A stretch of 64,000 bases of DNA from Nitrosospira sp. Nsp11 (GTDB lineage Bacteria > Pseudomonadota > Gammaproteobacteria > Burkholderiales > Nitrosomonadaceae). Below are positions 493 to 45,091 of this stretch, in pieces. The notes beneath the pieces were generated by a model. That model was not told the DNA's origin and made no database searches. It saw nothing but the letters and a program-made list of their open reading frames with translations. The position numbers and the translations under genes were made by a program. Location: contig NZ_FRBV01000011.1 of the NCBI RefSeq assembly GCF_900142705.1, positions 1 through 64,000 of the forward strand. The letters run 5' to 3'. The stretch's first letter is position 1. Every line of letters starts with the position of its first letter.

Positions 493-1452
493 TCATCCGC
501 GCGGAATGCCGGTTTGCCCGTCGCGATCAAACAGCAGCAGCACCCCACCCAGCAGGGACGGGATGCCGATGACCAATAGGTAGGTCAGCAGTGAAACGCC
601 CACTGCCACCTCCGCAGGTACGCCGACCAGCGAATAGAAAAACACGAACGCCCCTTCCCGAACCCCAAACCCGCTCACGGTCAAGGGCACCACCGTCAAC
701 ATCCCGATCAACGGGTACAGCAACAGGTTCTGCACGAAGGGCACCGGTTGATCAAAGGCCAAGAAAAGCAGATGAACGACAGTGACTAGCGACAGTTGAA
801 AGGCCGCGAGCCACAGCACCGTGGGAAGCAAGCCCAGACGGTAGGGAAAGCGCTGTACCGCCTGATGCAAGCGATGCAGATACTGCAACGCCCGACCCAC
901 CATCCTGGCGATGCGCGAACCGCCCGGCGCAGGCGCCTTCCAGCGTACCAGAAAGACCGCCAGTAACAGCAAGAACAGCCCGCCGTCCATCGCCAGCACC
1001 AGAACCAGAATAGGGCGGAACCGCTCTCCATCATAGACAAAAGGCAGGGCCAGAAGGGCAAACAGGCCGAGCAGCAGGAAACCGATCATCCGCTCGATGA
1101 CTACCGTGCTCCCTGCCACGCCGCGACTGCCGGGGTGACGACGCTCGATGAACAGGATGCGGAAAAAATCCATACCCTGGGATCCGGGCAGGAAGAGACC
1201 GAGAAAGGTTGCCTTCCAGTTGAACCCCCAGAGCACGGTCATGCGCTCTTTGATACCACTTAAACCCAGCAAATAACCCCAGCGGCTGGCAGACACCCAT
1301 GGGATCAATGTCAGCGGCAGCAGGGCCGCGACAACCACAAAGCCAAAATTGCGCAGGCGGTCGAGGATGCCGGCAAGGGAGATATCCACCAAATGGAACA
1401 ACGCCAGCAACAGAGCCAACGTCAACGCGAGTTTGATCAGACCGCGTTTCAT
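493..1452 (-). CDS. Lysylphosphatidylglycerol-synthase-TM / UPF0104-type integral membrane protein
   Basis: A 319-residue protein with about eight hydrophobic helices over its whole length and the family hallmark VSGFGVREGAFVFFY near residue 265. Proteins with this domain alone (no lysyl-transferase domain) are common in polysaccharide loci and are thought to move or modify lipid-linked material, but the substrate is not known. The start ATG overlaps the stop of the truncated capA fragment by four bases (ATGA), so the two are translationally coupled. The first 22 codons lie inside the 637-bp repeat and are identical to the fragment at 3085-3348; the rest is diverged from it. Confidence 0.75.
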   Translation of the reverse strand: MKRGLIKLALTLALLLALFHLVDISLAGILDRLRNFGFVVVAALLPLTLIPWVSASRWGYLLGLSGIKERMTVLWGFNWKATFLGLFLPGSQGMDFFRILFIERRHPGSRGVAGSTVVIERMIGFLLLGLFALLALPFVYDGERFRPILVLVLAMDGGLFLLLLAVFLVRWKAPAPGGSRIARMVGRALQYLHRLHQAVQRFPYRLGLLPTVLWLAAFQLSLVTVVHLLFLAFDQPVPFVQNLLLYPLIGMLTVVPLTVSGFGVREGAFVFFYSLVGVPAEVAVGVSLLTYLLVIGIPSLLGGVLLLFDRDGQTGIPRG

Positions 1453-2022
1453 TGCTCCAGGTGGCCGATGACTGCGGCGGCAAGACGGTTCATCACGTCC
1501 TGACCGTTGAAGCTACGATAGACCTTCAAGAGGTCAGCCGAACTGCCGGCAACCGCCGTCTGATGCTCTTTGCGGATGCGCACGTTTTGCCGGGCAATGG
1601 CCGGGGTTTGCCGGAAATAGGCGCGAAGATAGGGTAGTCGCGGCCCCGCCAATAGGGCCGCCAGGGCCGCCATCTGGGTCTGGATGGGAGCACTGCCGGT
1701 GGCGTCCAGCAGGCGCGCGCTGGTATCCGTCAGCCGGACCACGTGCACAGCGGCATCATACTGATGATTGGGCCGGATTTGGACGCTAATGACCAGTCCC
1801 TCCTGCAAGCGCGGGTCGTTCGGCACAGGCGACAGGCCATCGAACACCCGCGAGTGGAAGATGAAATTGCCGAGGCTGTAATAGATCTGCCGACCACGGT
1901 ATGTCTCACACGCCTGCCAGACATGGGGATGGGCACCGATGACCAGATCTGCTCCGGCATCGATGCAGGCATGGGCGATACCGCGCTCCCGCGGCGACGG
2001 CACATGGACGTACTCATAACCC
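1386..2022. repeat. 637-bp direct repeat, copy 1
   Basis: Aligns with 3282-3918 at a fixed offset of 1896 bases. The only difference I found is T at 1458 versus C at 3354 (His versus Arg near the CapA C-terminus). It spans the first 22 codons of the membrane-protein gene and the last 190 or so codons of the capA gene. Both edges cut through coding sequence, so it arose by recombination and not as a mobile element; I see no terminal inverted repeats. Confidence 0.93.
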
Positions 2023-2051
2023 ATCAGCCTAACAAATGTCCGCGGATTCAT
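1449..2051 (-). pseudogene. 5'-truncated capA copy in a new coupled reading frame
   Basis: The 200 codons begin with about ten unrelated residues (MNPRTFVRLM) and then match the C-terminal half of the CapA-like protein at 3345-4427 exactly, except for one residue. It keeps the metal-site motifs GAHPHV and YSLGNFIF but lacks the N-terminal GD, GNLE and NNH motifs, so it cannot form the metallophosphatase active site alone. Its ATG overlaps the stop of the methyltransferase upstream (ATGA), so it may still be translated. I judge it an inactive duplicate, although a small translated product is possible. Confidence 0.8.
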
Positions 2052-2995
2052 GAGCCAGCACTTCCGATTACCTTATTATTTGTGTCGCTATTGCGCACAA
2101 GATAGAACACCGTCTGTTCCAGTGAGTGATGGGAACCAATTAGCCGCAGCAGCACGGTCAACACCGGCGAGGCTATCTTATAGGCGAGAAAGGTCGCCAA
2201 ATTGTAGGTAGGGCCCGACCAAGGCCGGTCAAACACCTCAGCCTCCATACCAGCGTAGTGGAACTGTTCGAGCACCTGGCCGACCGTGTATTCCGTAACA
2301 TGGAGGCGAGACATAAACAATACCGGTCGCCCCACCAGCACCCGAACAAGGTTACCAAAGCGGTAGCGACTTGGCGTCGAGACTACCACAAACCCGCCAG
2401 GCTTCAGCACCCGACGTACGGCCGCCAGTAACCGCAATGGGTCCGGAACATGCTCCCAGATGTTGTTGAGCAGTACTAGGTCGAACCAACCATCCTGGTA
2501 AGGCAAGTCGTAAGCATCACCACAGCAAAAGGTAAGTGTAGGATATTCAGTAACCGCCTTATCGACGGCGGTTATTGAGTAATCGATCCCATACAGCTCC
2601 GCCATCGGAAACTGCTCAGACACCGCAGCGGTCAGATGGCCAGCGCCGCAGGCTACATCCAGGATCCGCACTGTCCCGGCCCCGCCTGTCGGTGATATTC
2701 GCGACAGCGCGGTAGCTACCAATTTCAGGGTCGTCTCGACACGCCGCTGCTGGAAACCGGAGCCACTTTCCAGCCCGTCCTGCACCAGATAGGGATCACC
2801 GTTGGCATACTCGTCGGAAGCGGTTATTGACGCACCCGGCAGGAATACGGGAAAACCTCTCGGATGCATTGCCAGCAGCGCACCACGCGGATTGCCAGCG
2901 CACCACTCGTTTAGCGGGCAGGCGTCATCGGGTCCCAGAGAGCGGCTGTGCGCCTGACTCCAATAGGTACAGCTGATATTGTAATTCTGAGACAT
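2048..2995 (-). CDS. Class I SAM-dependent methyltransferase
   Basis: A 315-residue protein. The SAM-binding motif I (ILDVACGAGHL) is near residue 110, followed by the acidic loop GIDYS, then NIWEHVPDP and LKPGGFVVVSTPSRYRF, the usual order of a Methyltransf_11-type fold. Residues 1-95 form an extra N-terminal region containing cysteines, which may be a small treble-clef-like segment seen in some sugar methyltransferases; that is inference. It sits between the two copies of the 637-bp repeat, so it was trapped or brought in by the rearrangement. The likely role is methylating a sugar or lipid-linked sugar; the acceptor is unknown. Confidence 0.8.
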   Translation of the reverse strand: MSQNYNISCTYWSQAHSRSLGPDDACPLNEWCAGNPRGALLAMHPRGFPVFLPGASITASDEYANGDPYLVQDGLESGSGFQQRRVETTLKLVATALSRISPTGGAGTVRILDVACGAGHLTAAVSEQFPMAELYGIDYSITAVDKAVTEYPTLTFCCGDAYDLPYQDGWFDLVLLNNIWEHVPDPLRLLAAVRRVLKPGGFVVVSTPSRYRFGNLVRVLVGRPVLFMSRLHVTEYTVGQVLEQFHYAGMEAEVFDRPWSGPTYNLATFLAYKIASPVLTVLLRLIGSHHSLEQTVFYLVRNSDTNNKVIGSAGS

Positions 2996-3084: not shown

Positions 3085-3348
3085 TCATCCGGGGCGCCCC
3101 GCAATCTGCCTGCCACGGTCGAACAGCAGCAACAGGCCGCCTAATAACGCTCGAACACCGATGACCAGCAGATAGTTGAGCAGCGAAACACCCACCGCCA
3201 CTTCGGACGGAACACCGACAAGCGAGTAGAAAAACACACAAGCCACCTCCCGCACACCAAATCCGCTAACTGTGACAGGTACCACCAAATGGAACAACGC
3301 CAGCAACAGAGCCAACGTCAACGCGAGTTTGATCAGACCGCGTTTCAT
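3085..3348 (-). pseudogene. Internally deleted LPG-synthase-TM gene
   Basis: 87 codons. The first 22 residues equal the start of the protein at 493-1452; the reading frame then jumps in frame to the C-terminal region (VTVSGFGVREVACVFFY), losing about 205 residues. The C-terminal part differs from copy 1 at roughly one residue in five, so this is a diverged paralogue joined to a recently copied 5' end. The ATG overlaps the capA stop by four bases. It retains only two or three helices and is unlikely to work. Confidence 0.8.
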
Positions 3349-3918
3349 TGCTCCAGGCGGCCGATGACTGCGGCGGCAAGACGGTTCATCACGTCCTGAC
3401 CGTTGAAGCTACGATAGACCTTCAAGAGGTCAGCCGAACTGCCGGCAACCGCCGTCTGATGCTCTTTGCGGATGCGCACGTTTTGCCGGGCAATGGCCGG
3501 GGTTTGCCGGAAATAGGCGCGAAGATAGGGTAGTCGCGGCCCCGCCAATAGGGCCGCCAGGGCCGCCATCTGGGTCTGGATGGGAGCACTGCCGGTGGCG
3601 TCCAGCAGGCGCGCGCTGGTATCCGTCAGCCGGACCACGTGCACAGCGGCATCATACTGATGATTGGGCCGGATTTGGACGCTAATGACCAGTCCCTCCT
3701 GCAAGCGCGGGTCGTTCGGCACAGGCGACAGGCCATCGAACACCCGCGAGTGGAAGATGAAATTGCCGAGGCTGTAATAGATCTGCCGACCACGGTATGT
3801 CTCACACGCCTGCCAGACATGGGGATGGGCACCGATGACCAGATCTGCTCCGGCATCGATGCAGGCATGGGCGATACCGCGCTCCCGCGGCGACGGCACA
3901 TGGACGTACTCATAACCC
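3282..3918. repeat. 637-bp direct repeat, copy 2
   Basis: The partner of 1386-2022, differing at one base. This copy lies within the intact capA gene and the deleted membrane-protein gene, so it is probably the donor. The match breaks at 3281/1385 and at 3919/2023. Confidence 0.93.
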
Positions 3919-4427
3919 CAATGGAAATAGGTCACGACAAAACAGCCGTCGGCCTTAAGTCGGCGGATGACGCGCCGCAATTGCGATGGCCGCTCGCTTG
4001 CGGTGCCAAGCAGGCCGTCCCTGGCATTGGCGTAACGGGTGGCACCGAGCAGGGCGAGGCGCACCCCATCACGTTCGAGAACCAGCGGCGTGAGCGCGGA
4101 GCGCTGATCCGGCCCGAGACCAAAATGACCAATGCCTGTCTGCCCGAGTGCTGCGAGCGTATCCCGGCAGCCCGTCTCGCCGTAATCCTGTACATGGTTA
4201 TTCGCCAGGGACACGGCAGCAAAACCTTGCAGTAGAGCCAGCGATTCCGCCGGCGCGCGGAGGTTGCATACCTGGAGCGGCTTCGGAACCTCATGGAGGG
4301 TGATCGGGCACTCCAGGTTACCGACATTGACGGCACCGTCCATCAGCGTCCGTAATGCCGTGTCGAACTCAAATCGTTGCCAGTCGATGCCCTCCAGGCA
4401 GATATCGCCAAAGAAATTGACTTTCAT
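3345..4427 (-). CDS. CapA / PgsA-like metallophosphatase-fold protein
   Basis: 360 residues of the PGA_cap family (capsule biosynthesis CapA, calcineurin-like fold). Motifs in order: FFGDICLEG at the N-terminus, GNLECPI near 37, LANNHVQDYG near 84, then FHWGYEY, GADLVIGAHPHV and YSLGNFIF. These make the two-metal site. The family is needed for poly-gamma-glutamate or other capsule polymers; the reaction is not settled. I chose the ATG at 4427, whose A is shared with the upstream ligase stop (TGATG). No signal peptide is visible, unlike Gram-positive CapA. It is coupled to the CapK-like ligase, suggesting both act on the same acyl or peptide decoration. Confidence 0.85.
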   Translation of the reverse strand: MKVNFFGDICLEGIDWQRFEFDTALRTLMDGAVNVGNLECPITLHEVPKPLQVCNLRAPAESLALLQGFAAVSLANNHVQDYGETGCRDTLAALGQTGIGHFGLGPDQRSALTPLVLERDGVRLALLGATRYANARDGLLGTASERPSQLRRVIRRLKADGCFVVTYFHWGYEYVHVPSPRERGIAHACIDAGADLVIGAHPHVWQACETYRGRQIYYSLGNFIFHSRVFDGLSPVPNDPRLQEGLVISVQIRPNHQYDAAVHVVRLTDTSARLLDATGSAPIQTQMAALAALLAGPRLPYLRAYFRQTPAIARQNVRIRKEHQTAVAGSSADLLKVYRSFNGQDVMNRLAAAVIGRLEQ

Positions 4428-5818
4428 CAAGGGGGTCCACTCAGTCGCTCAATGTTCTTGAACTTGCCGGTGCGCGCATCCACCGGCATGATGGCGCCGA
4501 CGAATTCCACCGCCAGCGGCACCTCGGCAAAGCGCGTCCGCCAGCGCGCTAGCGCTGCGTCGCGCACCGCCTCCGGCGCCTCACCGTTGCGCAGGCGAAG
4601 CCTCAGGGCCAGCCGGCCGTCCGGGTATTGGACGAACTTGAACTGGGCGCAGAGCGGGAAGTCCATGAATAGCGCATGCGCATGGTGATGGGCGAATCGC
4701 CGGCCGTCGGGCAGGGTCAGCACATCATCCACCCGGCCGAGGATCAGCCCCAGCACTTTGGCGGGGCAGTCGGGCCGAGGCAGGACCTCGCTGGTATCCC
4801 CAGTCCGATAGCGAATGAAGGGCATGGTGTGATTGACCAGATTGGTCAGCACCACGTCCCCCAACGTGCCATCTTCCTCCCCCTCAATCCGGGTGTTAAC
4901 GAGTTCCAGCATGCAGGCATGGCTCTGGATACGAAAATAACCGCCGTCGCCGGGATCGTGACCGATGGTCGGGCATTCCTGCAGGCCATAGTGGCTCACC
5001 ACCGGCGCGCCGAGCAGACGCTCGCAGCGCGCGCGCAGCGTCCGGCTGAGCGTCTCGGAGGTCAGCACCACTAGCCTGAACTGGTAGCGCCGGCCCTGCT
5101 CCTCGAGAAAGTCGCACAGTATGGTGATGATACCCGGCGTGGACCAGAGTACAGGTGCGTTCGCGTGTGCGTCGAGCCAGCGCAGAACCTCCGCCAACGG
5201 GGTGTAGATCGAGGCGATATCGCGCTCGAACAGCCCAAAGCCCCTACGCAGCCGTGTCAGCAGCCCCAGGTCCTGTTCCACCGGCAAAACCGCCTCGGGT
5301 TCCAGCCGGGTCAACATCAGGATGCGCTGCCAGGGGCGCCAGCCCAGCTCCCACAGCATCGCGAACACGCGCACATGCGAGGTGTATTGTTCCATCCGGG
5401 CCTGATAGATTACGAAGGGCTCGCCGCTGGACCCGCTGGTGGTGATACGCACCAGATCCGGTGTGATCGGCCCGGTCATCAGGTCCTGAGTGGGCACCGT
5501 CCGCAGAAGGGCCTTGTCCACCATTGGCACACGCTCGATGTCGGCCCAGTCGCGGATCACCAACCGGTCCACGCCGGCCTCGCGGTACAGGCGCCGGTAG
5601 AAAGGCGAATGTTCGCGGGCGTGCTCGAACAGGCGCCGGAAGCGGACGAGTTGGCGGCGGCGGGTCGCGGAGGAGGACAGTCGCGCAAACCGCACACTGT
5701 CGGCGTAGTGGCCGACCAGGGAAACGTATCGAAAGATCAGGGCAGCGTTCTCCCGGTGGGCGACAGTTGCTGAAGATCCGACGACATGCCTCGAATAATG
5801 TCTTGCCGTTGCAGGCAA
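4427..5818 (-). CDS. CapK/PaaK-like adenylate-forming ligase (first of three)
   Basis: About 460 residues of the phenylacetate-CoA ligase-like family found in capsule loci. Visible motifs: the phosphate loop TTSGSSGEPF near residue 128, YGLQECPTIGHDPG (base-binding region) and NHTMPFIRYRTGDTSEV (the conserved RTGD). The family activates a carboxylate as acyl-AMP; the natural acceptor in EPS loci is unknown. The frame opens with a TTG at 5818 and no Shine-Dalgarno sequence, and there is no in-frame ATG in the first 90 codons. The same DNA just upstream carries an IS-transposase start in another frame, so the true N-terminus has probably been replaced by an insertion. It may be 5'-truncated. 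GC-rich compared with the other two ligases. Confidence 0.7.
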   Translation of the reverse strand: MPATARHYSRHVVGSSATVAHRENAALIFRYVSLVGHYADSVRFARLSSSATRRRQLVRFRRLFEHAREHSPFYRRLYREAGVDRLVIRDWADIERVPMVDKALLRTVPTQDLMTGPITPDLVRITTSGSSGEPFVIYQARMEQYTSHVRVFAMLWELGWRPWQRILMLTRLEPEAVLPVEQDLGLLTRLRRGFGLFERDIASIYTPLAEVLRWLDAHANAPVLWSTPGIITILCDFLEEQGRRYQFRLVVLTSETLSRTLRARCERLLGAPVVSHYGLQECPTIGHDPGDGGYFRIQSHACMLELVNTRIEGEEDGTLGDVVLTNLVNHTMPFIRYRTGDTSEVLPRPDCPAKVLGLILGRVDDVLTLPDGRRFAHHHAHALFMDFPLCAQFKFVQYPDGRLALRLRLRNGEAPEAVRDAALARWRTRFAEVPLAVEFVGAIMPVDARTGKFKNIERLSGPP

Positions 5819-5856
5819 TGTACGATTCGCTCGTATTGGGCTTGAGTGATTTCCAT
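5803..5856 (-). mobile_element. Relic of an IS5-type transposase start
   Basis: From the ATG at 5856 the minus strand reads MEITQAQYERIVHCLQRQ, which resembles the opening of IS5-family (IS1031-like) transposases; the frame then loses the resemblance and stops after about 38 codons. No full element or inverted repeats are seen. It abuts the 5' end of the ligase gene and probably explains that gene's missing start. Confidence 0.5.
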
Positions 5857-6133
5857 GCCTATAAGTATACGTGAATAATGCAATATGGTTATTAGAGTTA
5901 ACAGGACCTAAGTTATGGATGTCAAGTTGTACAAATCGGTTGGGTATGAGGTTGTGTTGTTTTACTTACTATATGCTGCCATGCGCAGTAGTTCTTTTTT
6001 CTGTTCTTGGTAGTGTCGGGAATTGACACTGACCCGCTTCGGCTTCATTCCGGCAGCCAACTGATTCGCCCCTCACCAGCCAATCATCATCAGGGGTCAG
6101 GCAAGCATTCGTCTTGAGGGCGGTTCTTTCAGG
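5857..6133. other. Spacer between ligase and methyltransferase
   Basis: A stretch of about 280 bases with no credible reading frame. It is AT-rich at 5860-6010. A short palindrome (AGTGTC...GACACT near 6011-6030) could be a weak hairpin. Nothing else is recognised. Confidence 0.4.
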
Positions 6134-6877
6134 TTAAAGCATGCATTCTGCTGTAGCCCTAACAACAAAATAGGCGGGATTATCGGGAGCTAGATCACCT
6201 GATTGGCAGAGAGCCCAAAGAACAGAGTCCGGCAAGATTTGCATCTGTTGATGCGTAATTGGCTTTAATCCGACCGGTGTAACTTCTGAAATGAAAAAAC
6301 CGGCAGCGGTCAGATGATGTTTCAGCAAGTCCAACGTATAAACTCTTCTGTGCCCAACCTTCAAGTCGCTTTTGGATAGCTCGTCGATCTTAGGGATCAG
6401 GCCGGCGCGCATCGCTACGATGCGATGAATAGACAAAGCATTGGGGACAGCGACAAAAATAGAACCATCCGGGTCACATGCTCTTTTTGCTTTGACAAGT
6501 ATGTCAATGGGGTCCTCCACATGCTCGAGCAACATGGTCAAATAGACATGATGCCAAGTGCGTCCTGGCGATTCCAGGAAATCCTCGATCAGATTAACAT
6601 GCCCGCGAAGAGTAGCACCTTTGTTCTTCATCTCGTTGACTACATGGGCAACAAGTTCGGCGGCAGCATCAACCGCATCCACTTCCTGATAGCGTTCACA
6701 CAACACCCCGGTCCATCGCCCGCTGCCGCAGCCCAGCTCCAGGGCAGACCGTCCACCCTCCCGAGGAATTGCTATATCTCTTAAATAGAGATGAAAATGA
6801 TCCACTGCCTGAGCTGCTTCACTTGAATGATAAAACCCGGCGATCTGCTCCAAACGATCCTTTTCATTGTGACTCAT
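6134..6877 (-). CDS. Class I SAM-dependent methyltransferase
   Basis: 247 residues. Motif I is ALELGCGSGRW near residue 47, followed by VDAVDAA and LTMLLEHVEDP, typical of the UbiG/Methyltransf_23 type. I chose the ATG at 6877, which has AGGA eleven bases upstream; a longer frame to 6976 would overlap the ATP-grasp gene and lacks support. It lies directly downstream of the ATP-grasp gene in the same transcript, so it may methylate the product of that ligation or the sugar carrying it. Substrate unknown. Confidence 0.8.
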   Translation of the reverse strand: MSHNEKDRLEQIAGFYHSSEAAQAVDHFHLYLRDIAIPREGGRSALELGCGSGRWTGVLCERYQEVDAVDAAAELVAHVVNEMKNKGATLRGHVNLIEDFLESPGRTWHHVYLTMLLEHVEDPIDILVKAKRACDPDGSIFVAVPNALSIHRIVAMRAGLIPKIDELSKSDLKVGHRRVYTLDLLKHHLTAAGFFISEVTPVGLKPITHQQMQILPDSVLWALCQSGDLAPDNPAYFVVRATAECML

Positions 6878-6917
6878 CTTGTTTTTCCTGTTGATTCCAA
6901 AAATATCAGTGGGAGAC

Positions 6918-8111
6918 TTAGGCGAACACAATTTCCACAAGGGAAGCCAAATCAGCGGCCAATTGCTCGGCTTCATTGACTGATGCGCCTGTGACGATCA
7001 CATCCCCGATGCGATCCGGTCCAACGCGAAACCGGCGTACGCTGTCGCCCGGTTTGGCATAGATCGACAACCGATGAAGATTCGGATGCAAACGTACCGA
7101 TTCCGGGACCCGAACTTGAAGCACCACGCCATCCTGCGGGCTTTCTATCATTCGAGATGCATTCGGCATTCCCTTATATATATCTGCCGCTACAAGCGGC
7201 TCGCCCAGAGCTAGAGACAGCACTACATCATAGGCATTGAAGCCGCCAAAGATGGAAATTGTCTCCGGGAGACAGGTCGCACCCATGCGAGCAGCGATTT
7301 CAAGGATGTAGGGCGTATCGCCGACAAGCATCAAGTCCACATTCGACACCGTGTCACAAATGCCCAAAGCCTCAATCGCGGCTGCGATCTCCATACATGA
7401 ACGGGCTTGCTGATCAGGGCTCAAAGTGCAGGGAATCGAGTGTCCGACCGGCGCGTGGTCCGGAGGCGAAGTCAGTTGATCATTGTGAAGAAACACCGTT
7501 TTGACACGACTTCCCTCAACAATAGCCTGAGCCCCAAATTCAATGCCTTCGAGATACTCCTCCAGAACGACCCGCCCTGAACTGGAAGCCTGCTTTGAAG
7601 CGTTCCAGGCATCATGAAGCTCTTCCGGTCGATCGACCTTAAAGACGCCTTGACTGCCTGATGAATCCACTGCTTTGCTCATCAAGGGAAAACCGATTGT
7701 TTCCTTCGCTAGAGTCAAAGCATCAGGCATGTCGCAGACCAAACCTCGCGCAGTCCTGACGCCTCGCCTGATGAGGCCCTGTTTCATTAACCATTTGTCT
7801 GAACATGCAACAGCCGATTCATAGCCGGTTCCATATAAACCAAGTTCATCGATCACACGACCAATTGTAGGAACAACAACATCAGTTCCCGTGCAGGCAA
7901 TACCGTCAATGGCGTAGTGTCTCGCGTATTCGAGAATCGTTTCGGTGTGACGAAAGTCACAGTGGACCTGATGGTCGGCGAGTTTCAAGCCTTTATAATC
8001 ACCGTCCGGGCTGACGACAATCGTAACAAGCCCACGTCGCTTGGCTTGTTCAATCAGAGGAGTGACGGTGTTGCCGGCCCCCAAAATCATAATTTTCTTC
8101 GCGCCAGTCAA
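6918..8111 (-). CDS. ATP-grasp carboxylate-amine ligase-type enzyme
   Basis: 397 residues. The N-terminal Rossmann-like pre-ATP-grasp region begins MILGAGNTVTPLI. The central ATP-grasp fold has KAVDSSGSQGVFKV (ATP-binding loop, near 150) and VVLEEYLEGIEFGAQA, and the metal site is ILEIAARMGATCLPE. Such enzymes join a carboxylate, via acyl phosphate, to an amine. In EPS loci they can attach an amino acid or amide to a sugar acid, or build a small peptide; here that is inference. The ATG overlaps the GT2 stop upstream by four bases (ATGA), so it is coupled to a polyprenyl-type glycosyltransferase. Confidence 0.82.
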   Translation of the reverse strand: MTGAKKIMILGAGNTVTPLIEQAKRRGLVTIVVSPDGDYKGLKLADHQVHCDFRHTETILEYARHYAIDGIACTGTDVVVPTIGRVIDELGLYGTGYESAVACSDKWLMKQGLIRRGVRTARGLVCDMPDALTLAKETIGFPLMSKAVDSSGSQGVFKVDRPEELHDAWNASKQASSSGRVVLEEYLEGIEFGAQAIVEGSRVKTVFLHNDQLTSPPDHAPVGHSIPCTLSPDQQARSCMEIAAAIEALGICDTVSNVDLMLVGDTPYILEIAARMGATCLPETISIFGGFNAYDVVLSLALGEPLVAADIYKGMPNASRMIESPQDGVVLQVRVPESVRLHPNLHRLSIYAKPGDSVRRFRVGPDRIGDVIVTGASVNEAEQLAADLASLVEIVFA

Positions 8112-9079
8112 AAACGTTCCCCCTTGTCTGTCGTATCTTCCGGAAAGCCGATAGTCTGACGGACCGTAGTGACCTTCGATTTTTGCAATTCGCCTAATAC
8201 GCGAGCAATATACTCTCCGATGACTCCAAGAGACAGAAGAATCAATCCAGCAAAAAACGTGATTAAAATCACAAGACTAGTCCAACCAGCCTGAGAAATA
8301 CCACCCATAAGGTATTTGATCAGGAAATAGCAAAGCAATCCGCCACTCAGCACGGAGGCCAATAGCCCGGCTGCGGAGATCATGCGCAACGGCAGCATGC
8401 TCACGCTGCATATATTGTCAAAAGCTTGCTTGAATTGCTTAGCCACAGTGTAATTCGATTTGCCGGAAAACCGCTCGTTGTGGGGGATGGGAACGGACTT
8501 TATTCGCGCGGCGTTTGCAATAATCAGACCACCCACAGTAGCGCTTGCCGACTGGTTTTGGCGAATAATCTGGGCCATGTATCCGCGCATCAGTCGAAAC
8601 GACGAAACTTTGATCTTCTCGTTGGATCCAAACGCTCGCGAGTTAATCCCGCTTATGATTTTGGAGCCAATATTGCGATAGCCTGCATGTTTTTTCTCGG
8701 GAAAATAGGCAAAAACACAGTCGTAATCTCCCTTCTTCTCTAACTCGTCCAACAAAAGCGGAATGAGTTGAGGATCGTGCTGAAGATCGTCATCCATAGT
8801 GATGACGATTTCACCACTGGCAACTTTAATCCCAGCCATGGTTGCTCTGGTCTGGCCAGAGTTTGTAAGTAATTGAACGCCTTTGTAACGCAGCCGAGTT
8901 CGTGCCAGTTCTGAGACCACGTTCCAACTGTCGTCCGGGGAACAATCATCAACCATGATAATCTCATAGTCCAAGTTCAGTTCACCGAAAACAGTATCCA
9001 GCCGATTAGCCAGTTCCAGCAAACACTTACTTGATTTATATACGGGTATTACAACGCTGTAAGAAGGCATAGAAGTCAT
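8108..9079 (-). CDS. GT2 glycosyltransferase, polyprenyl-phosphate sugar synthase type
   Basis: 323 residues. An N-terminal GT-A domain (SVVIPVYKSS; MVDDCSPDDS; MDDDLQHDP as the DXD region) is followed by two C-terminal membrane helices near 230-300 and the tail LGVIGEYIARVLGEL, the layout of ArnC/GtrB-like enzymes that make polyprenyl-phosphate sugars at the cytoplasmic membrane. Together with the coupled ATP-grasp and methyltransferase genes it could form a side-branch modification unit. The starts at 9079 and 9070 are both possible. Confidence 0.85.
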   Translation of the reverse strand: MTSMPSYSVVIPVYKSSKCLLELANRLDTVFGELNLDYEIIMVDDCSPDDSWNVVSELARTRLRYKGVQLLTNSGQTRATMAGIKVASGEIVITMDDDLQHDPQLIPLLLDELEKKGDYDCVFAYFPEKKHAGYRNIGSKIISGINSRAFGSNEKIKVSSFRLMRGYMAQIIRQNQSASATVGGLIIANAARIKSVPIPHNERFSGKSNYTVAKQFKQAFDNICSVSMLPLRMISAAGLLASVLSGGLLCYFLIKYLMGGISQAGWTSLVILITFFAGLILLSLGVIGEYIARVLGELQKSKVTTVRQTIGFPEDTTDKGERF

Positions 9080-9380
9080 GAATCCAGATTATCCACATCA
9101 AATTTCTAACCGATTGACGTTTAGAGCAAACTCACATAAGCCTGCCACTTGGGTTGAGACTAACGATCTTTTTTCTCGCACAACGCTTTGCTCGCTCCAG
9201 CGAGAGAATAGCATTCGGGCTTGAGCCGAAACCCGGCCAACGTGGGTGCTTTACATGCTCATGGATATCGCCTCCAACGGCATGACGCTCGTTACGAATT
9301 GCTCGCTTGATTCAATAGCAACCAGCGCGAAAAAACGATGTAATTTCACAATAAGACGTTGAGATTAACTCCTCGTCCGA
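9080..9380. other. Spacer, no gene seen
   Basis: Three hundred bases without a supported reading frame. A compact hairpin CTCGCT-CC-AGCGAG occurs near 9190-9205. No IS ends or promoter elements could be identified with confidence. It may be relic sequence. Confidence 0.35.
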
Positions 9381-10733
9381 TCAAACCGTTGCGACTTTGC
9401 TCACTACGTAACGAAACTTGCCGGATTTCTCTAGTGGAATTTCGGCCACCTCTTCAATCGCAATATTAACGGCTTGACCCAATCTGCCCTTGAATCCCCT
9501 CTCGATTCTCGCGATAGTCTTTGGGCAAAGCTTTGCTTCCCCGACTACCCATACGCGAGTGAGATCCAGACTTTCTTGAACGATTTTGAAGTTGCTTATG
9601 TGCGGTAGTTCGCGCAGGATATAGATCAAAGCCAGACCGTGCATGACTGTACCATCTTGAGCAACCAAAAAATCAGAACTGCGTCCCTGAATTTTCTTGA
9701 TCAGAGGAAGGCCACGTCCGCAAATGCAGGGCTTGCTGTCCAGTACGCCGATATCGCCGGTACGATAGCGGATGAAGGGAAAATCTCCAGTGGCCAGATG
9801 GGTGACGATGATTTCTCCGGCCTCGCCACAGGGTAGCGGAATACCCTGCTGATCCACGATCTCGACAATGATATCCTCTGCGGTAATATGCATGCCGCCC
9901 TGCGGACATTCATGGGCGATAAAACCGGCGTCACGCCCACCGTAGCCATTGGCCACCGAACATCCGAATGTTTTGCTGATCTGCTGGCGCTGCTCGTCGT
10001 AAAGGCGTTCTGAAGTAACGAATGCGACGCGGATGCCCAGATCGTCCATCCGGCACCCGCAGGCTTCGGCATGGCGGGCGATATGCGATAGCGCAGAGGG
10101 ATAGCCGAAAAGCATTTTAGGACGAATGGCTCGGATTTCTTGCAGGAACCGGTCGAGCTTTTGCGCTGACATTTCGAAGGCGGGGAGCAGGCAAGTCCTG
10201 AGCAACTTGTCGCGGAGCGCGCGAAGGCTGTCCTGAGCGCCGAGTTCAATGGGTGATCCCCAGATAACAACCTCGGGGTCGCCGATATCTACATCCCACC
10301 AGCGTGTAGCGCGCCACTTGGCGGCGACATCATGGCTGATGCGCTCTTTTCCGATATAAAATATCAGCGGTTCGCCACTGGAACCGCCGGTGTTAAAACG
10401 GGCGAGGTCTCGGCCATTTGCAGATTTCAATGCTTCGGTGTTGGCGCGAATTTTTGGTTTATCCAGAAGAGGCAGGCGTGCCAGGTCCGCGAGACTGCGC
10501 AGGTGGGACGCCTTGAACCCAATGCTTGTGAACAGATTGCGGTAATAAGGGACATGCGCCTCGACGTGGGTAAGGAGTCGCTGCAGTTTGGCAAACTGGA
10601 ACGCTTCCAGATGTCTGGTATCCCACCATTGAGATAGCTCCATCTCTTTGCGAACCGCAACGCTACTGTGGTTTTTGATGCGCTCGTGAAGGGGAAAAAC
10701 AAGGCTGGAGATCAGAGATGTATATAAGCTCAT
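9381..10733 (-). CDS. CapK/PaaK-like adenylate-forming ligase (second of three)
   Basis: 450 residues, full length for the family. Motifs: NTGGSSGEPLIFY near 115, NGYGGRDAGFIAHEC, FPFIRYRTGDIG, and the cysteine pair CICGRGLPL often seen in capsule CapK-like members. It should form an acyl-AMP; whether the acceptor is CoA, a carrier protein or a sugar is not known. Its last 108 bases are found again at 91-198. An acyltransferase fragment lies just upstream, consistent with acyl decoration of the polymer. Confidence 0.83.
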   Translation of the reverse strand: MSLYTSLISSLVFPLHERIKNHSSVAVRKEMELSQWWDTRHLEAFQFAKLQRLLTHVEAHVPYYRNLFTSIGFKASHLRSLADLARLPLLDKPKIRANTEALKSANGRDLARFNTGGSSGEPLIFYIGKERISHDVAAKWRATRWWDVDIGDPEVVIWGSPIELGAQDSLRALRDKLLRTCLLPAFEMSAQKLDRFLQEIRAIRPKMLFGYPSALSHIARHAEACGCRMDDLGIRVAFVTSERLYDEQRQQISKTFGCSVANGYGGRDAGFIAHECPQGGMHITAEDIIVEIVDQQGIPLPCGEAGEIIVTHLATGDFPFIRYRTGDIGVLDSKPCICGRGLPLIKKIQGRSSDFLVAQDGTVMHGLALIYILRELPHISNFKIVQESLDLTRVWVVGEAKLCPKTIARIERGFKGRLGQAVNIAIEEVAEIPLEKSGKFRYVVSKVATV

Positions 10734-10792
10734 TTTAAGAATTTAGCAGGCTTGGCGTTGCCTTGTAATGAATTATGCTTCAAGAGATGATA

Positions 10793-11173
10793 TTAAATAT
10801 TCGGCGCAAAAAGGGAGGCAGCAGCCACGCTTTGCGAGAAAGCTTTGAGGTGGTGCGGTGTCATCCAGAACCAGGCATACGGAAGACTTGCAAGCATCAC
10901 CAGGAACAGGGGTGGCAGGATGCGGCGCGCGCGCCTCTCGTAGAAGCTAACGTTAGAAAATTTCCCGGCCTTGTGCTCACTGAGAATTATCGAGGTGATG
11001 AGATAGCCGCTGATAACAAAGAACACGTCCACGCCGATGTAGCCGCCGCTAAACCACTCAAAACCAGCATGGAAAAGAACGACGAGGATAACTGCGATGA
11101 CCCTCAGTCCATCAACTTCAGCGCGGTATCTGAATCCCCCGGCATGCTCTTTCACCACGCTTTGCGGTATCAC
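10793..11173 (-). pseudogene. Truncated acyltransferase-3 (OafA/YrhL-type) gene
   Basis: 126 codons matching only the N-terminus of membrane O-acyltransferases: RYRAEVDGLRVIAVILVVLFHAG with the family histidine, GGYIGVDVFFVISGYLI and YERRARRILPP. Complete members have ten or more helices and 350-650 residues; here the frame stops after the third helix (LFAPNI). The rest of the gene is not present nearby, so this is a remnant of an O-acetylation gene. Confidence 0.8.
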
Positions 11174-11360: not shown

Positions 11361-12452
11361 TCATTTTTGCAGGGCCTGCTTGTAAACACGGAGCAGACAA
11401 TCCCGAACATTGGGCCATGTGTAGCGCTGCACAGCCTCGACGCCGGCCTTGCTGAGCTGCATAGCCTTGGCAGGGTCGTTCAGCAGTGCAAGAACGGCGT
11501 TGGCCATGGCCTCCGGGTTTTGCGGGGGGACAAGCAAGGCCGTCTTTTCATGTTCCACCATAAAGGGCACTCCGCCGACATCTGTGCTCACCACGGGAAC
11601 GCGACTCGCCAATGCCTCCAGCAATGAGATGGGCATGTTATCGACCAGGCTGGGATTGATCATGATGTCGGCGCTCTGATATAGAGCGGCCATGCCCTCA
11701 TTATCCACGCGGCCCGTGAATGCAACCACATCCGCCACGCCCAGCCTGCATGCAAGTTCTTCCAGCATCCGCCGCTCTGGCCCGGACCCGGCCAAGGTAA
11801 GTTTTGCCGCCGGAAACGCCTGTTTTATGATAGTGAAGGCGCGCAAGGCAGTGGCATTGTCGTAAATCGGCTCCAGGTTGCGGGTAACGATGATATGCGG
11901 AAAACTTGCTTTCGGCAGAGGCGCGGGGCGCGTTGGCATCCCGAAGCGGCTAAGGTCGATAATGTTGGGTACGATGCTGGTAGCGAAACCCCGCTTTCCA
12001 AATACAGCTTCAAGAAAACCGGAAGGAACGACGATCGCATCGGCCCGGTGCAGGCTTGGCCTTACCCAAAAAAATGCTTTACTGAAAAAGACATCCGCCT
12101 CGCCGCCGCGGTAATTGATAATAACGGGTATGTTTCTGATTCTGGCTATCCAAATGGCCGGGGCGGCAAAAAGGTGCCATGACCAGCCGGAATTAGCCAT
12201 CACGTGAAATAACTGGACCCTGCTTGCCGAAACCCAGAGGTGAGCAAGATAAGGGAGCAACCGAAAACCCGCTCTTATCCCCTTGAGCCTGCCAACCCAA
12301 TGGGGATGGTAGGGGCGATTGACCTGAATCAACTCCACCGTGGCATCTTCCTCTCGCAGCAACCGGGCTAGTTGCAGCATCTGGTTCGCCATCCCCCCCG
12401 ATGGAGGCGGTAGGGGCCCAATCAGGCCGATGCGCAAGCCAGCCGCTTTCAC
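11361..12452 (-). CDS. GT4 glycosyltransferase
   Basis: 363 residues from a GTG at 12452 whose GTGA overlaps the stop of the upstream glycosyltransferase; a longer frame to 12518 would overlap it by 70 bases. N-terminal GPLPPPSGGMANQ loop and C-terminal retaining GT-B signature (INPSLVDNMPISLLEALASRVPVVSTDVGG, with the E-X7-E pattern). It should transfer a hexose from a nucleotide sugar to the growing EPS unit. The two GT4 genes are co-transcribed and coupled. Confidence 0.85.
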   Translation of the reverse strand: MKAAGLRIGLIGPLPPPSGGMANQMLQLARLLREEDATVELIQVNRPYHPHWVGRLKGIRAGFRLLPYLAHLWVSASRVQLFHVMANSGWSWHLFAAPAIWIARIRNIPVIINYRGGEADVFFSKAFFWVRPSLHRADAIVVPSGFLEAVFGKRGFATSIVPNIIDLSRFGMPTRPAPLPKASFPHIIVTRNLEPIYDNATALRAFTIIKQAFPAAKLTLAGSGPERRMLEELACRLGVADVVAFTGRVDNEGMAALYQSADIMINPSLVDNMPISLLEALASRVPVVSTDVGGVPFMVEHEKTALLVPPQNPEAMANAVLALLNDPAKAMQLSKAGVEAVQRYTWPNVRDCLLRVYKQALQK

Positions 12453-13669
12453 GACGATACCCGCTTGGCGACAAGCGGGGCGTAGACGCCTCGGTAACGG
12501 GCAACACTGATGGGCCAATTACGTTGTGTTTCCACAAAGCTTCGGGCGGCGTCGCGCAAACCAGGCCATTGACCGGGACTGGCAAGAAGGTTCAACACCC
12601 TGGATGCCAGGGCATGCGGATCGCCAGCCTTGAAAAGGACGCCGGTTTTTCCGTCGTCGATCAATTCCAGATGGCCGCCGACATCCGATGCCACGACAAG
12701 CCTGCCTTGTGCCATGGCTTCAAGGGGCTTGAGCGGCGTGACGAGGTCGGTGAGCCGCATTTGCAGACGGGGATAGATGAGAATATCGATCAGATTGTAA
12801 TAAAGAGGTACCTGCTCATGAGGGATACGGCCGGTGAAGATCACCTTGCCTTCGAGGCACAACTGTCTGGTTATCGCCTTTAATTCTTTTTCCTGTGGGC
12901 CCCCACCGACCAGCAGGACGCGAATATCGGGGTTTCCGGCCAACATTTCCGGTAGTGCCCGCAACAGGACGGTCAAACCCTCATAAGCATAAAATGAACC
13001 AATGAAGCCCAGCAGCGTTTTTCCCTCAACGCCAAGATCTGCGGCAAGCTGCGGGTCCCTGCTTTTGCCCACGCTGAAGTTTTCGATGTTGACGGCGTTG
13101 GGGATAACCGTTACCTTTTCCGATGCAATGCCGCGCCCGAGAATGTCAGTGCGCAGGCCTTCGCAAATGGTGGTGATGGCGTCAACGCGCCTCAAGGCGT
13201 AACTCTCCAATCCACGCGTAAGGCGATACCTTAATCCCCATTCACGGCTGGTGCCGTGATCCACTGCTGCGTCTTCCCAGAACGCTCTGATTTCATAGAC
13301 GACCGGGATGCTCAACTTGCGGCCTACGCGAAGCGCGGGTATGGCGTTAAGTACCGGGGAGTGGGCGTGCAGGATATCAGGCTTGATGATTTGGGCTGTC
13401 TCGCTGAGGCGGCGAGTCAGGTTTTCGATGACGGAAACCTGATTCAGGACGGGAAGTTTCGACCCGAAACCTGTTGCCTCCGGTGTTCTATAAAAGTGCC
13501 AGCCTTCAACATCTTCTTCCAGCACGCTGCAATTTTCCTGTTTTGATCCGGTCAGGTGAAAGGTTTCCCATCCCAGAGCGCGCTGCTCTTTGAGAATGGA
13601 GAGCGTCCTGAATGTATAGCCACTGTGGAGGGGAATGGAATGGTCAAGAATATGCAGGATTCGCATCAA
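12449..13669 (-). CDS. PEP-CTERM/exosortase-associated GT4 glycosyltransferase (TIGR04063-like)
   Basis: 406 residues. The opening MRILHILDHSIPLHSGYTFR with EQRALGWETFHLTG and later EIRAFWEDAAVDHGTS matches my recollection of the Daro_2409-type glycosyltransferase family, which is found next to exosortase A EPS loci. The C-terminal GT-B region contains TDLVTPLKPLEAMAQGRLVVASDVGG. It supports the view that this is an exosortase-linked EPS locus, even though the exosortase present at 58.3 kb looks like type B. The second methionine may be the start. Confidence 0.87.
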   Translation of the reverse strand: MMRILHILDHSIPLHSGYTFRTLSILKEQRALGWETFHLTGSKQENCSVLEEDVEGWHFYRTPEATGFGSKLPVLNQVSVIENLTRRLSETAQIIKPDILHAHSPVLNAIPALRVGRKLSIPVVYEIRAFWEDAAVDHGTSREWGLRYRLTRGLESYALRRVDAITTICEGLRTDILGRGIASEKVTVIPNAVNIENFSVGKSRDPQLAADLGVEGKTLLGFIGSFYAYEGLTVLLRALPEMLAGNPDIRVLLVGGGPQEKELKAITRQLCLEGKVIFTGRIPHEQVPLYYNLIDILIYPRLQMRLTDLVTPLKPLEAMAQGRLVVASDVGGHLELIDDGKTGVLFKAGDPHALASRVLNLLASPGQWPGLRDAARSFVETQRNWPISVARYRGVYAPLVAKRVSS

Positions 13670-13873: not shown

Positions 13874-15583
13874 TCATAGGGATTTGTTCTGTTGGGGCTT
13901 CAGTTTGATTTCCATGCCCATATGCGGCAGTGGAATAACGAGACCACCCGCCTGTTCCTTTTTATCCAGGTAGCGGTAGACCCGGATTGACAGATTATCA
14001 AACTCCGGCACATTGGTTAGTACCGGGATTTCCTTAATCATCTGGAACCGGTGGTCATCCATGGCTTTAGCCAGGAGTTTAAATTCAGGCAGATCCACTA
14101 CGTCGCGGCTCTCGATCACGATGATCCCTACCCCATAACGGTCGATTAACCCGATGACATCTTCCACGTTCTGGACATAGGAGACCATGCCGAATGCCTT
14201 GTGTACCGCCATGGATACCAGGATCTTGTCGGCTCGCAATACCGCCTTGTTCTTCTCGGGATCAACGGCGCGCAGGTGAAAGATGAAATTTCCGTCATGT
14301 TTTCCGGCAAACAGAATCAAGCCGGTATCGTCCTGCCGCACGACAAATTCAGCTGCTTGTTCGTATCCGGCTACATAGGTGTGGGTCTTGGTCGATCCCA
14401 CATATACATTCCAACTGGCAAGCACAGCCAGAAACACGAACGCGGCTCGACGTATACCGGCGTTCAGCACGACTCCCGGGCTTAATGGCATACAGGCCAG
14501 CAATGCCAGCGGGGGCAAGGCATACATGGTGTAGCGCAAAACATTCCCCTCGCCGCGTCCGACGACTAATACCGTAAACAGGTATGAGGCCGCAAGCCAA
14601 AAAAAGATCAGCGAATCCTGCGGCTTGCCCCTGGTACCCATATGTGCCCGGAACGCAACGCCTATCAGAATGGCGATACCAAGCGGCCATCCGCAAACAT
14701 CCCACAGTGCTGACCAATAATATCCCCAGCGCCTTCCGTTGAACAGTTGCGAGCTGTTCGGACCGAATTGATTCACCAGAGCATTGACCGGTATTGCACC
14801 GAACTTGAGCGCATGCATTGTGAGCAATGCGCTGGCAGCTCCAACTATGACATACGCCAGCGCAGCCTCTTTACGCCATAGCAACCGTCCATGTCCGGTG
14901 AGCAATGCGTAGGCCAGCAAGGCGGGCAGGATGAATACGGTAGTTTGCTTGAGCAGCAGCATGGATGCCAGCGCAAGCCCGGCAAGTGCGGCGCGGCGCC
15001 AACTTGGATGACTCAGATAACGATCAAATGCCAGAATGGACACAATGATCATCGCCACTGCCGGGACCTCCAGCATGATGGAACGTGTCCAATCGAGCAC
15101 GCCCGGCGTCGAAAGATAAAGCAGGCAGGACAGTACTGTAGCTGCGCGCCCCCAGATTGGCCGCGCCCAGGCATACCATGCTGATACGCCAACCAGAGCG
15201 AAGACCATTACGGTGAGATGGGCGCTGAATTCGGTGATTCCGAAAATAGCGAAAAAAACAGACTCCACGACGGGGAAAAACGGCGGATACCAGTTTAATG
15301 CCAGGGCGGGATATTGAGCAAAATACTGAAGAGCGTACTCATAGGGCGCCCTCCAGGGCACGTCCTGCCAGAGATCAAAAAAGAAGACGCCGTTCATCGC
15401 ATGGCGGGATTCATCGGTCCACCAGAATTCTCCAGGATTCAGCGCGTTCCAGAAGAGCACGCACACGCCACACCACAGCACCAGCAGGGCGAGCGCATCG
15501 CGAGAATTGAGCCGTATGCTCGAATCAAGTCTTGAATCAGCCTGATCAGGTTGCACCGTAGGCCGGGCGCCCGGCGTTGTCAT
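13874..15583 (-). CDS. GT39 / ArnT-like membrane glycosyltransferase
   Basis: About 569 residues with ten or more hydrophobic helices and the first-loop acidic motif WWTDESRH near residue 55, the catalytic DE of PMT/ArnT-type enzymes that use polyprenyl-phosphate sugars on the periplasmic side. I chose the ATG at 15583, five bases after the wecE stop, over an upstream TTG. Next to WecE and an EmrE/ArnF-like transporter it could add an amino sugar from a lipid carrier to the polymer, as ArnT does for aminoarabinose; this is inference. Confidence 0.8.
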   Translation of the reverse strand: MTTPGARPTVQPDQADSRLDSSIRLNSRDALALLVLWCGVCVLFWNALNPGEFWWTDESRHAMNGVFFFDLWQDVPWRAPYEYALQYFAQYPALALNWYPPFFPVVESVFFAIFGITEFSAHLTVMVFALVGVSAWYAWARPIWGRAATVLSCLLYLSTPGVLDWTRSIMLEVPAVAMIIVSILAFDRYLSHPSWRRAALAGLALASMLLLKQTTVFILPALLAYALLTGHGRLLWRKEAALAYVIVGAASALLTMHALKFGAIPVNALVNQFGPNSSQLFNGRRWGYYWSALWDVCGWPLGIAILIGVAFRAHMGTRGKPQDSLIFFWLAASYLFTVLVVGRGEGNVLRYTMYALPPLALLACMPLSPGVVLNAGIRRAAFVFLAVLASWNVYVGSTKTHTYVAGYEQAAEFVVRQDDTGLILFAGKHDGNFIFHLRAVDPEKNKAVLRADKILVSMAVHKAFGMVSYVQNVEDVIGLIDRYGVGIIVIESRDVVDLPEFKLLAKAMDDHRFQMIKEIPVLTNVPEFDNLSIRVYRYLDKKEQAGGLVIPLPHMGMEIKLKPQQNKSL

Positions 15584-15587
15584 TTCT

Positions 15588-16709
15588 TCATAACTCTGCA
15601 ATGACCTCCAGGATGACTTCGCTTTGGAACTCCTCCAACCCCAGCCATAACGGCAACCGTACCAACCGTTCGCTCAGCAATTGCGTCTGGGTTAGCGATC
15701 CGGATCTGCGTCCGTATTTTTCCCCCATGGGGGAGCTGTCAAGTGGAATGTAGTGAAAGACGGTTCCTATTCCCTTCTGTTTGAGTGCGGCGATGAAAGT
15801 GCTGCGCTTGTCGAGATTCGGCAACAAAAGGTAGTACATGTGCGCGTTATGCGTGCAACCCCGGGGAATGATGGGACGACGTATCTTGCCCTGTATTTCC
15901 ACGGAGCCGAAGTTATCGTGATAGGTGTTCCAGATACCCAACCGGCGATTCGTGATGGAATCAGCCTCTTCCATTTGAGCCCATAAAAAGGCAGCTATCA
16001 GTTCACTCGGAAGATAGGATGAACCGAAATCAACCCAAGTGTATTTATCGACCTGACCCCGAAAAAAAAGGCTGCGGTTGGTACCCTTTTCCCTGATTAT
16101 TTCGGCTTTTTCAGCAAAACTCGGCGCATTTATCAATAGGGCGCCGCCTTCTCCGGAAATGATGTTCTTGGTCTCATGAAAACTCAATGCGGCGAGATGG
16201 CCTATACTCCCCAGCGGCCGCCCTTTATAGGTGGACATGATGCCCTGCGCGGCGTCTTCGATTACCAGCAAGCCGTATCTTTCCGCTAACGACATGATGG
16301 TATCCATCTCGCAGGCGACGCCCGCGTAGTGAACCGCCACGATCGCCCTTGTTTTCGGCGTGATTGCCGCCTCTATCAAGGTCTCATCGATATTGAAGGT
16401 GTCGGGCCGAATGTCGACGAATACCGGTACGCCTCCCCTCATTGCAAACGCATTGGCGGTCGAGACAAAAGTGTAGGAGGGCATGATGATCTCATCGCCG
16501 GCGTGAATGTCAGCAAGAATCGCCGCCATCTCCAGCGCAGCTGTGCACGAATGCGTCAGCAATGCTTTCTCACAGCCGATGCGATTCTCCAGCCATGCGT
16601 TGCACTTTCTGGTAAAAATTCCGTCACCGGCGAGATGGCCGCTGGCATGAGCCTGGCTTACGTACCACAGCTCTTTTCCGGTCATGTAAGGCTTGTTGAA
16701 TGGGATCAT
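15588..16709 (-). CDS. wecE: dTDP-4-amino-4,6-dideoxygalactose transaminase
   Basis: 373 residues, very close along its length to enterobacterial WecE/RffA (MIPFNKP..., GDGIFTRKC, MPSYTFVSTANAFAMRGG). PLP site: the lysine of SFHETKN (residue 181) and the aspartate of VIEDAAQG (residue 152). It converts dTDP-4-keto-6-deoxyglucose to dTDP-4-amino-4,6-dideoxygalactose. The substrate can come from RfbA and RfbB at 32.8-35.7 kb, so this enzyme competes with the rhamnose branch. Downstream genes (GT39) and upstream ones (EamA-type, WbqC) are likely partners. Confidence 0.92.
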   Translation of the reverse strand: MIPFNKPYMTGKELWYVSQAHASGHLAGDGIFTRKCNAWLENRIGCEKALLTHSCTAALEMAAILADIHAGDEIIMPSYTFVSTANAFAMRGGVPVFVDIRPDTFNIDETLIEAAITPKTRAIVAVHYAGVACEMDTIMSLAERYGLLVIEDAAQGIMSTYKGRPLGSIGHLAALSFHETKNIISGEGGALLINAPSFAEKAEIIREKGTNRSLFFRGQVDKYTWVDFGSSYLPSELIAAFLWAQMEEADSITNRRLGIWNTYHDNFGSVEIQGKIRRPIIPRGCTHNAHMYYLLLPNLDKRSTFIAALKQKGIGTVFHYIPLDSSPMGEKYGRRSGSLTQTQLLSERLVRLPLWLGLEEFQSEVILEVIAEL

Positions 16710-16756: not shown

Positions 16757-17164
16757 TTAGGCGCGCGCGATGATAATCAAGCCGCCGACTACCATTATGG
16801 TACCGATTACGCTCTGGATGGTGAGTAACTCATTCAGAAAAACCACCGAGAAAACCATGACGATGACAAACGCCAGGCTCATGAAGGGGTAAGCGTAATT
16901 GAGTTCGAAACGAGTCATTGCCGCCATCCACGCAAGCGAAGCAAGAAAAGCAGAAAGTAAGGCCGATATGATCCATGGATTGAAGAACTGCTGGAAAAGA
17001 AATAAGAGTTTGTCGCCCCCCCCTTCCGGCATGCCGCGCGTTTGCGCCATCTGCCACCTGAGCACCAACTGACCATATACCGTGAACAGCAGGGTCAGCA
17101 GGATATAAATATGTCCCGCCATATCGAATCGTCCGTTCATCTTTCTCTCATGCTTGATATTCAT
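16757..17164 (-). CDS. EamA/EmrE-like small membrane transporter (ArnF-like)
   Basis: 135 residues with four hydrophobic helices, the size of small multidrug resistance or ArnE/ArnF proteins. The C-terminal part (AYPFMSLAFVIVMVFSVVFLNE) is typical of the EamA fold, which includes flippases for undecaprenyl-phosphate aminoarabinose. I chose the ATG at 17164, which overlaps the wbqC-like stop (ATGA); longer frames run into that gene. Its neighbours suggest flipping of a polyprenyl-phosphate amino sugar. Confidence 0.75.
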   Translation of the reverse strand: MNIKHERKMNGRFDMAGHIYILLTLLFTVYGQLVLRWQMAQTRGMPEGGGDKLLFLFQQFFNPWIISALLSAFLASLAWMAAMTRFELNYAYPFMSLAFVIVMVFSVVFLNELLTIQSVIGTIMVVGGLIIIARA

Positions 17165-17862: not shown

Positions 17863-17917
17863 AAATTATTCGGCTAGAGTAGTCAGAGTAGTGATTGCAG
17901 CCGTTGGCTTGGGACAC

Positions 17918-29176: not shown

Positions 29177-29190
29177 TACCAGGCCTTTTT

Positions 29191-44962: not shown

Positions 44963-45091
44963 CGGTAACTCTCCTCGCCCGATCAACATGTCAGTGGTAC
45001 AGGCGATCTAAAGGGATTAAAAACAGATTACCGGCCGTTCAGCGGCGCCATCAGCGACAAATGCTATACCTTTGAAGTTGATCCCATTCTA

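Follow-up and report, generated by a model that had tools for sequence, protein, structure and literature searches.

Acetyltransferases that act on 4-amino sugars, such as those of the NeuD/PglD/VioB group and WecD, depend on acetyl-CoA, and in the tetronylation of perosamine by Vibrio cholerae O1 (rfbKLMNO) an acid-activating ligase serves the N-acylation of a 4-amino sugar. Another enzyme type may fill the same position in an exopolysaccharide (EPS) cluster of the ammonia-oxidising bacterium Nitrosospira sp. Nsp11, which we analysed over the first 64,000 bases (1-64000, the window; mean GC 0.517) of a 90,091-base contig (NZ_FRBV01000011.1) from a 3.2 Mb genome. The original prediction, made from the letters of this DNA, had joined three ligases related to CapK and PaaK, an ATP-grasp ligase and a CapA protein into one undescribed toolkit that would install a single substituent on an EPS sugar. 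The ligases and the ATP-grasp protein do sit in a genuine EPS locus, and the comparisons argue against a common pathway. With moderate confidence, we read the stretch as a mosaic of what look like separately inherited gene sets, placed in the variable region of an EPS cluster of the Nitrosospira type, in which the ATP-grasp protein (ATPg) may N-acylate a 4-amino-4,6-dideoxy sugar.

Central to this reading is a block of three genes. GT2a (8108-9079(-), the minus denoting the reverse strand) encodes an ArnC/PgfS-like polyprenyl-phosphate glycosyltransferase (PF00535 over cutoff) and overlaps ATPg (6918-8111(-)) by four bases, which bears out the predicted coupling of an ATP-grasp ligase to a polyprenyl-type GT2. 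The expected methyltransferase, MT2 (6134-6976(-); PF13489 over cutoff), is S-adenosylmethionine (SAM)-dependent. ATPg is a carboxylate-amine ligase that, judged by its domains, probably belongs with the L-amino acid ligases: LAL_C2 and ATP-grasp domains including ATP-grasp_3 (PF18603 and PF02655 over cutoff) occur together with what we take to be the ATP-binding lysines and Mg-binding acidic residues. K106, K146, E184, D259, E271 and R275 are invariant in four orthologues, and K106, K146, E184, E271 and R275 are likewise kept in seven aligned plasmid relatives and in the ATP-grasp protein of Nitrosospira briensis Nsp8. The closest solved relative is the ATP-grasp protein 4dim (5e-53). Structure predictions of ATPg (mean pLDDT 51.7) and of a nearby WbqC-family protein (41.4) were too poor for use.

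ATPg was found in three of 150 relatives and, at 60% identity, in a metagenome-assembled genome (MAG, L012). Wider searches returned it in one of 369 class genomes and one of 398 phylum genomes, both times the window's own, in one of 142 MAG relatives, namely L012 itself, and in no phages; these cassette searches used strict thresholds of 1e-40 to 1e-60 and leave distant relatives uncounted. In three genomes of the genus GT2a, ATPg and MT2 are all intact, at 89-94% identity, and L012 has the three together again at 51-65%, there in the order GT2-WbqC-ATPg-MT2-...-WecE. Comparison thus shows the three genes to be a rare, transferred block.

The sugar that ATPg may act on can be made from genes in the window. 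The WecE-type transaminase (15588-16709(-)), which makes dTDP-4-amino-4,6-dideoxygalactose, exceeds its curated cutoffs (618 bits against 375 and 617 bits against 435), as do all of rmlC, rmlA, rmlD and rmlB (32283-35675(-); TIGR cutoffs), which provide dTDP-rhamnose and the WecE substrate dTDP-4-keto-6-deoxyglucose; since RmlA, RmlB and WecE all score over cutoff, dTDP-Fuc4N is to be expected. WecE is present in all four ATPg-carrying loci, and the WbqC-family protein (17161-17862(-); PF08889, 235 bits), for which no solved relative was detected by sequence at E 0.01, adjoins WecE in the genus and lies inside the ATP-grasp block in L012.

A similar neighbourhood is seen on plasmids. At 1e-15, 46 plasmid records match ATPg, and 14 neighbourhoods were examined, picked by genus and not randomly (one each for 12 of the 13 genera plus two more Streptomyces). 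A WecE-like aminotransferase lies within 5 kb of the ATPg relative in seven of the 14, namely those of Aureibacter, Parabacteroides, Solidesulfovibrio, Enterococcus, Brachyspira, Bacteroides and Streptomyces sp. 769, versus none of 12 GT4 controls (Fisher p 0.005). The aminotransferase was probed by sequence and not by annotation, because one control record and the Acetoanaerobium record are unannotated in the relevant stretch. Gene orders include pseC-pseF-ATPg (Aureibacter), sugar transferase-ATPg-DegT (Parabacteroides) and rfbB-ATPg-DegT (Streptomyces sp. 769). Even for the non-orthologous ATP-grasp protein of Nsp8, the Acetoanaerobium relative adjoins a WecE-like gene (44%) and a GT2 gene. 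In the sugar loci of Parabacteroides and Bacteroides with a DegT aminotransferase, paired ATP-grasp genes stand close together (L088, L093), and on a Rhizobium binae plasmid an ATP-grasp gene is directly followed by a CapA gene (L096 4998-7808).

The likeliest alternative, which we consider improbable, is that the substrate of ATPg is a uronic acid (GalNAcA), whose carboxylate the enzyme would activate and couple to an amino acid in amide linkage. Amides between uronic acids and amino acids are known from O-antigens, and the window holds a TviC-like epimerase and a TviB-like dehydrogenase (28118-30471(-)) whose best matches stay under cutoff (TviB 499 bits against 592, TviC 500 against 760), so that the UDP-GalNAcA supply proposed earlier is plausible. 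These genes, however, lie about 20 kb away, and in the stretches viewed for the 14 plasmid neighbourhoods an annotated nucleotide sugar dehydrogenase appears once (in Aureibacter, at a distance of about 7 kb) versus a 4-aminotransferase within 5 kb in seven. Both a uronic acid and a 4-amino sugar had been offered as acceptor; the 4-amino sugar fits the aminotransferase neighbourhood, and the uronic acid is less supported.

Several observations weigh against N-acylation by ATPg. WecE also occurs in seven of 14 genus loci that lack ATPg, and thus the 4-amino sugar does not need ATPg; within the window the two genes are about 7 kb apart. The other seven plasmid neighbourhoods have no aminotransferase and are mostly non-polysaccharide, with peptide, metal-compound or unidentified contexts, and the control is a small set of 12 neighbourhoods of partial GT4a matches spread over the ranking. 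An intact NeuD-type acyltransferase (>80% identity) lies beside WbqC in five of 23 genus genomes; the window keeps a remnant of this NeuD/PglD/VioB-type gene (17886-18017(-); C-terminal 44 of 226 residues), and this remnant counts in favour of N-acylation by ATPg. We did not accept mutual exclusion of NeuD and ATPg as proof of replacement, however, because zero overlap between five and three carriers of 23 is no more than chance predicts (p 0.46). A further acyltransferase candidate is the hexapeptide protein at 18140-18736, which could itself have replaced NeuD. Separately, beside WbqC three Nitrosospira-type loci (L046 1518-4661, L050, L061) carry a set of VOC protein, FkbH and NeuD, which suggests that the 4-amino sugar may receive its acyl group in carrier-bound form.

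If ATPg does acylate the 4-amino sugar, the pathway could run as follows, with acid, acceptor and step order all inferred. RmlA, RmlB and WecE would yield dTDP-Fuc4N with a free 4-amino group; ATPg would convert a carboxylic acid (an amino acid being the likeliest) to an acyl phosphate and join it to this amine, replacing or supplementing an acetyl-CoA-type NeuD/WecD acyltransferase. MT2 might then methylate the sugar or the acyl group, and GT2a would load the product onto polyprenyl phosphate. A small SMR-type membrane protein (16757-17164(-); ArnF-like), as flippase subunit, and an ArnT-like PMT_2 membrane glycosyltransferase (13874-15601(-); PF13231 over cutoff) could carry it to the polymer, while the CapK proteins, as adenylate-forming ligases, would supply further acyl groups within their own units. 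A literature search, with most subscription papers beyond reach, found no published case of a 4-amino sugar serving as substrate for an ATP-grasp enzyme. Acylation by ATPg would give a common neighbour gene of sugar aminotransferases a testable reaction and make charge-bearing aminoacyl groups on EPS predictable from sequence.

Downstream of MT2 lies another rare block, richer in GC, which usually comes after a set of GT2, methyltransferase and ATP-grasp genes. It consists of CapK1 (4427-5818(-), 463 aa; GC 0.647), a PaaK-like adenylate-forming ligase; CapA (3345-4430(-); PGA_cap, PF09587 at 184.7 bits against a cutoff of 27), which overlaps CapK1 by four bases and lies just beyond the range of the original prediction; and LPGtm as last gene (493-1452(-); GC 0.594), an LPG_synthase_TM/flippase-like membrane protein (PF03706 and TIGR00374 over cutoff). 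GC is 0.59-0.65 in these three genes versus 0.47-0.53 in GT2a, ATPg and MT2. Between CapA and LPGtm is MT1 (2048-2995(-)), a SAM methyltransferase also present in L011 (98%) and L012. Among 300 order genomes CapK1 was found in the window's own only, and at the strict threshold it was not found on plasmids. The two blocks, whole or in part, were seen across five loci: the window, Nitrosovibrio sp. Nv6 (L011/L045), G020 (L044), Nsp8 (L010/L046) and L012. CapK1 is intact in the window, Nv6 and Nsp8, both named carriers being placed in the window's genus, and together with CapA it is reduced to remnants in G020 and L012, two of the five loci in which GT2-ATP-grasp-MT2 or a portion of the block persists. 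The Nsp8 block is preceded by different versions of the three genes: a GT2 at 49% to GT2a, a methyltransferase at 32% and an ATP-grasp protein at 22%. A functional link is therefore favoured, as the same arrangement recurs with other gene versions; equally, decay in two of five loci indicates that CapK1 need not be linked to the set. A CapK gene has a CapA gene within 5 kb in at least five of 199 genomes, three with the CapK1 block plus G037 and G064, and the two are directly adjacent on a Deinococcus plasmid.

CapK2 (9381-10733(-), 450 aa) has a different history. It occurs in 22 of 23 genus genomes, the one genome without it being about 80% complete and the copy in G003 having an in-frame stop, and it adjoins two GT4 genes, in the order GT4b-GT4-CapK2, in 30 of 33 fetched loci (16/16 within the genus, 14/17 outside). 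In the window these are GT4a (11361-12518(-)) and GT4b (12449-13669(-)), the latter a glycosyltransferase of the PEP-CTERM/XrtA system (TIGR04063, 649 bits against a cutoff of 442). A truncated acyltransferase-3 gene (10748-11173(-)) lies between CapK2 and GT4a and retains, from the N terminus, 143 of the 637 residues of its homologue in G006 (L042), where the gene is intact. XrtA itself is encoded elsewhere in the genome (contig C23; 359.5 bits, cutoff 208), while the window carries XrtB (58273-59193(-); 462 bits, cutoff 275) and two exosortase A system-associated hydrolases, hydrolase 2 and hydrolase 1 (24890-26613, forward strand; TIGR03101 323 bits against 203, TIGR03100 352 against 168). 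CapK2, GT4a and GT4b thus form a conserved unit of which CapK2 is an old member. On a Roseobacter litoralis plasmid a GT2 is naturally fused to a CapK/PaaK-like ligase (L103 5212-7428), which supports a role of CapK with a glycosyltransferase. A 'possible CapK protein' is the 15th best phylogenetic-profile match for PEP-CTERM genomes in Table 2 of Haft 2006 (PMC1569441), and on the evidence of this table the CapK part of the proposed system was not undescribed.

All three ligases are similar to PaaK/CapK proteins over most of their length and match PaaK, DVU1553, FlxY and F390-related NCBIfam models, with every score under the curated cutoffs; for the PaaK equivalog TIGR02155 (cutoff 646 bits), CapK1, CapK2 and CapK3 reach 72, 109 and 30 bits, which places none of them in that family. 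Only CapK2 has a Pfam match (AMP-binding, over cutoff), and in a structure search covering CapK1 and CapK2 both matched PaaK-type structures. The first two open reading frames lie where they were predicted; the third ligase, CapK3 (43691-44989(-), 432 aa), exists too, its far end being 44989 and not 44962 owing to start-codon choice. Within each group the P-loop, the YG A5 motif, RYxTGD, GRxxD and the C-terminal catalytic lysine are conserved in alignments of 5 (CapK1), 36 (CapK2) and 4 (CapK3) rows, two genomes being counted twice in the CapK1 and CapK2 sets. The CapK2 group has Asp at the A5 Glu position of PaaK, unchanged in its 36 rows. The ligases and ATPg alike keep their catalytic motifs. 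A search of the genome with CapK2 returned the three ligases and one remnant, and a LuxE family search of the same genome gave no match.

That the three ligases, ATPg and CapA form one pathway for a single substituent is very improbable. All members do fall within one 64-kb window, and CapK1 follows a GT2, methyltransferase and ATP-grasp set in all five loci (two remnants counted), in Nsp8 even with other gene versions. The distributions are nevertheless too different (CapK2 in 22/23 genus genomes, ATPg in 3/150 relatives, CapK1 in 1/300 order genomes), CapK1 and CapA have decayed in two of the five loci while ATPg is intact, pairwise identity among the ligases is 25-29%, and CapK3 is set apart by about 33 kb, in the half of the cluster that holds XrtB. 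Adjoining CapK3 is a polysaccharide lyase (42427-43371) that bears a PEP-CTERM sorting signal.

Alternatively, the blocks could be hitchhiking cargo shuffled at a recombination hot spot, without a common product and some of them dead. Traces of rearrangement are plentiful: a 637-bp direct duplication with one mismatch (1386-2022(-), 99.8% identical to 3282-3918) spans the 3' part of CapA and its flank, a diverged flippase-gene remnant (3107-3286) adjoins the copy at 3282-3918, and right where the contig begins there is a CapK2 3'-end (C-terminal) remnant (91-198; 89% in protein). The original prediction had mentioned neither the duplication nor the CapK2 remnant, nor the WecE gene. The truncated genes at 10748-11173 and 17886-18017 and the CapK1-CapA remnants in G020 and L012 point the same way, and Nsp8 has a short CapK2-like piece past its flippase gene (L046 18369-18701). 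We nevertheless regard shuffling without function as rather unlikely, as GT2a, ATPg and MT2 have stayed intact in the genus and together in the MAG, and the active-site residues of ATPg are invariant. Under the mosaic reading, ligases in a large EPS locus should not be tallied as one pathway; each is better read in its own gene unit.

A broader and quite tentative extension is that an ATP-grasp amide-ligase family, spread across phyla, specialises in the N-aminoacylation of nucleotide-activated 4-amino-4,6-dideoxy sugars in place of acetyl-CoA-dependent acetyltransferases. Its members would be swapped between EPS loci as cassettes of GT2, methyltransferase and ATP-grasp genes, with CapK-CapA pairs perhaps adding a second, adenylate-derived acyl group.

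Several described systems share parts with the locus. The window ligases are alike in fold family and motifs to PaaK phenylacetate-CoA ligase, F390 synthetase and FlxY, but score far below every curated cutoff, and the CapK2 group differs by its Asp for the A5 Glu. As in the PEP-CTERM/EpsH (XrtA) EPS set with CapK (NE2015, Daro_2411, Nmul_A0291), CapK2 is paired with an over-cutoff TIGR04063 glycosyltransferase; the window differs in having XrtA on another contig, XrtB inside and the extra ATP-grasp and CapK1 blocks. With the aminoarabinose (Arn) pathway it shares the ArnC-like GT2a and a second PgfS/ArnC-like enzyme, GT2b (18793-19746(-)), the ArnF-like SMR protein, the ArnT-like PMT_2 and a sugar aminotransferase. 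This aminotransferase, however, is WecE and not ArnB, and GT2a (136.7 of 529 bits for ArnC) and the SMR protein (42.4 of 99 for ArnF) fall short of Arn membership. The V. cholerae O1 rfbKLMNO system uses another enzyme set, with a carrier protein. ATPg resembles the L-amino acid ligases (BL00235, 3vot; BacD) and 4dim in its LAL_C2 domain and ATP-grasp core and differs from them in its polysaccharide setting, and it would stand at the same pathway position as the NeuD/PglD/VioB and WecD acetyltransferases, which are unrelated to ATP-grasp enzymes.

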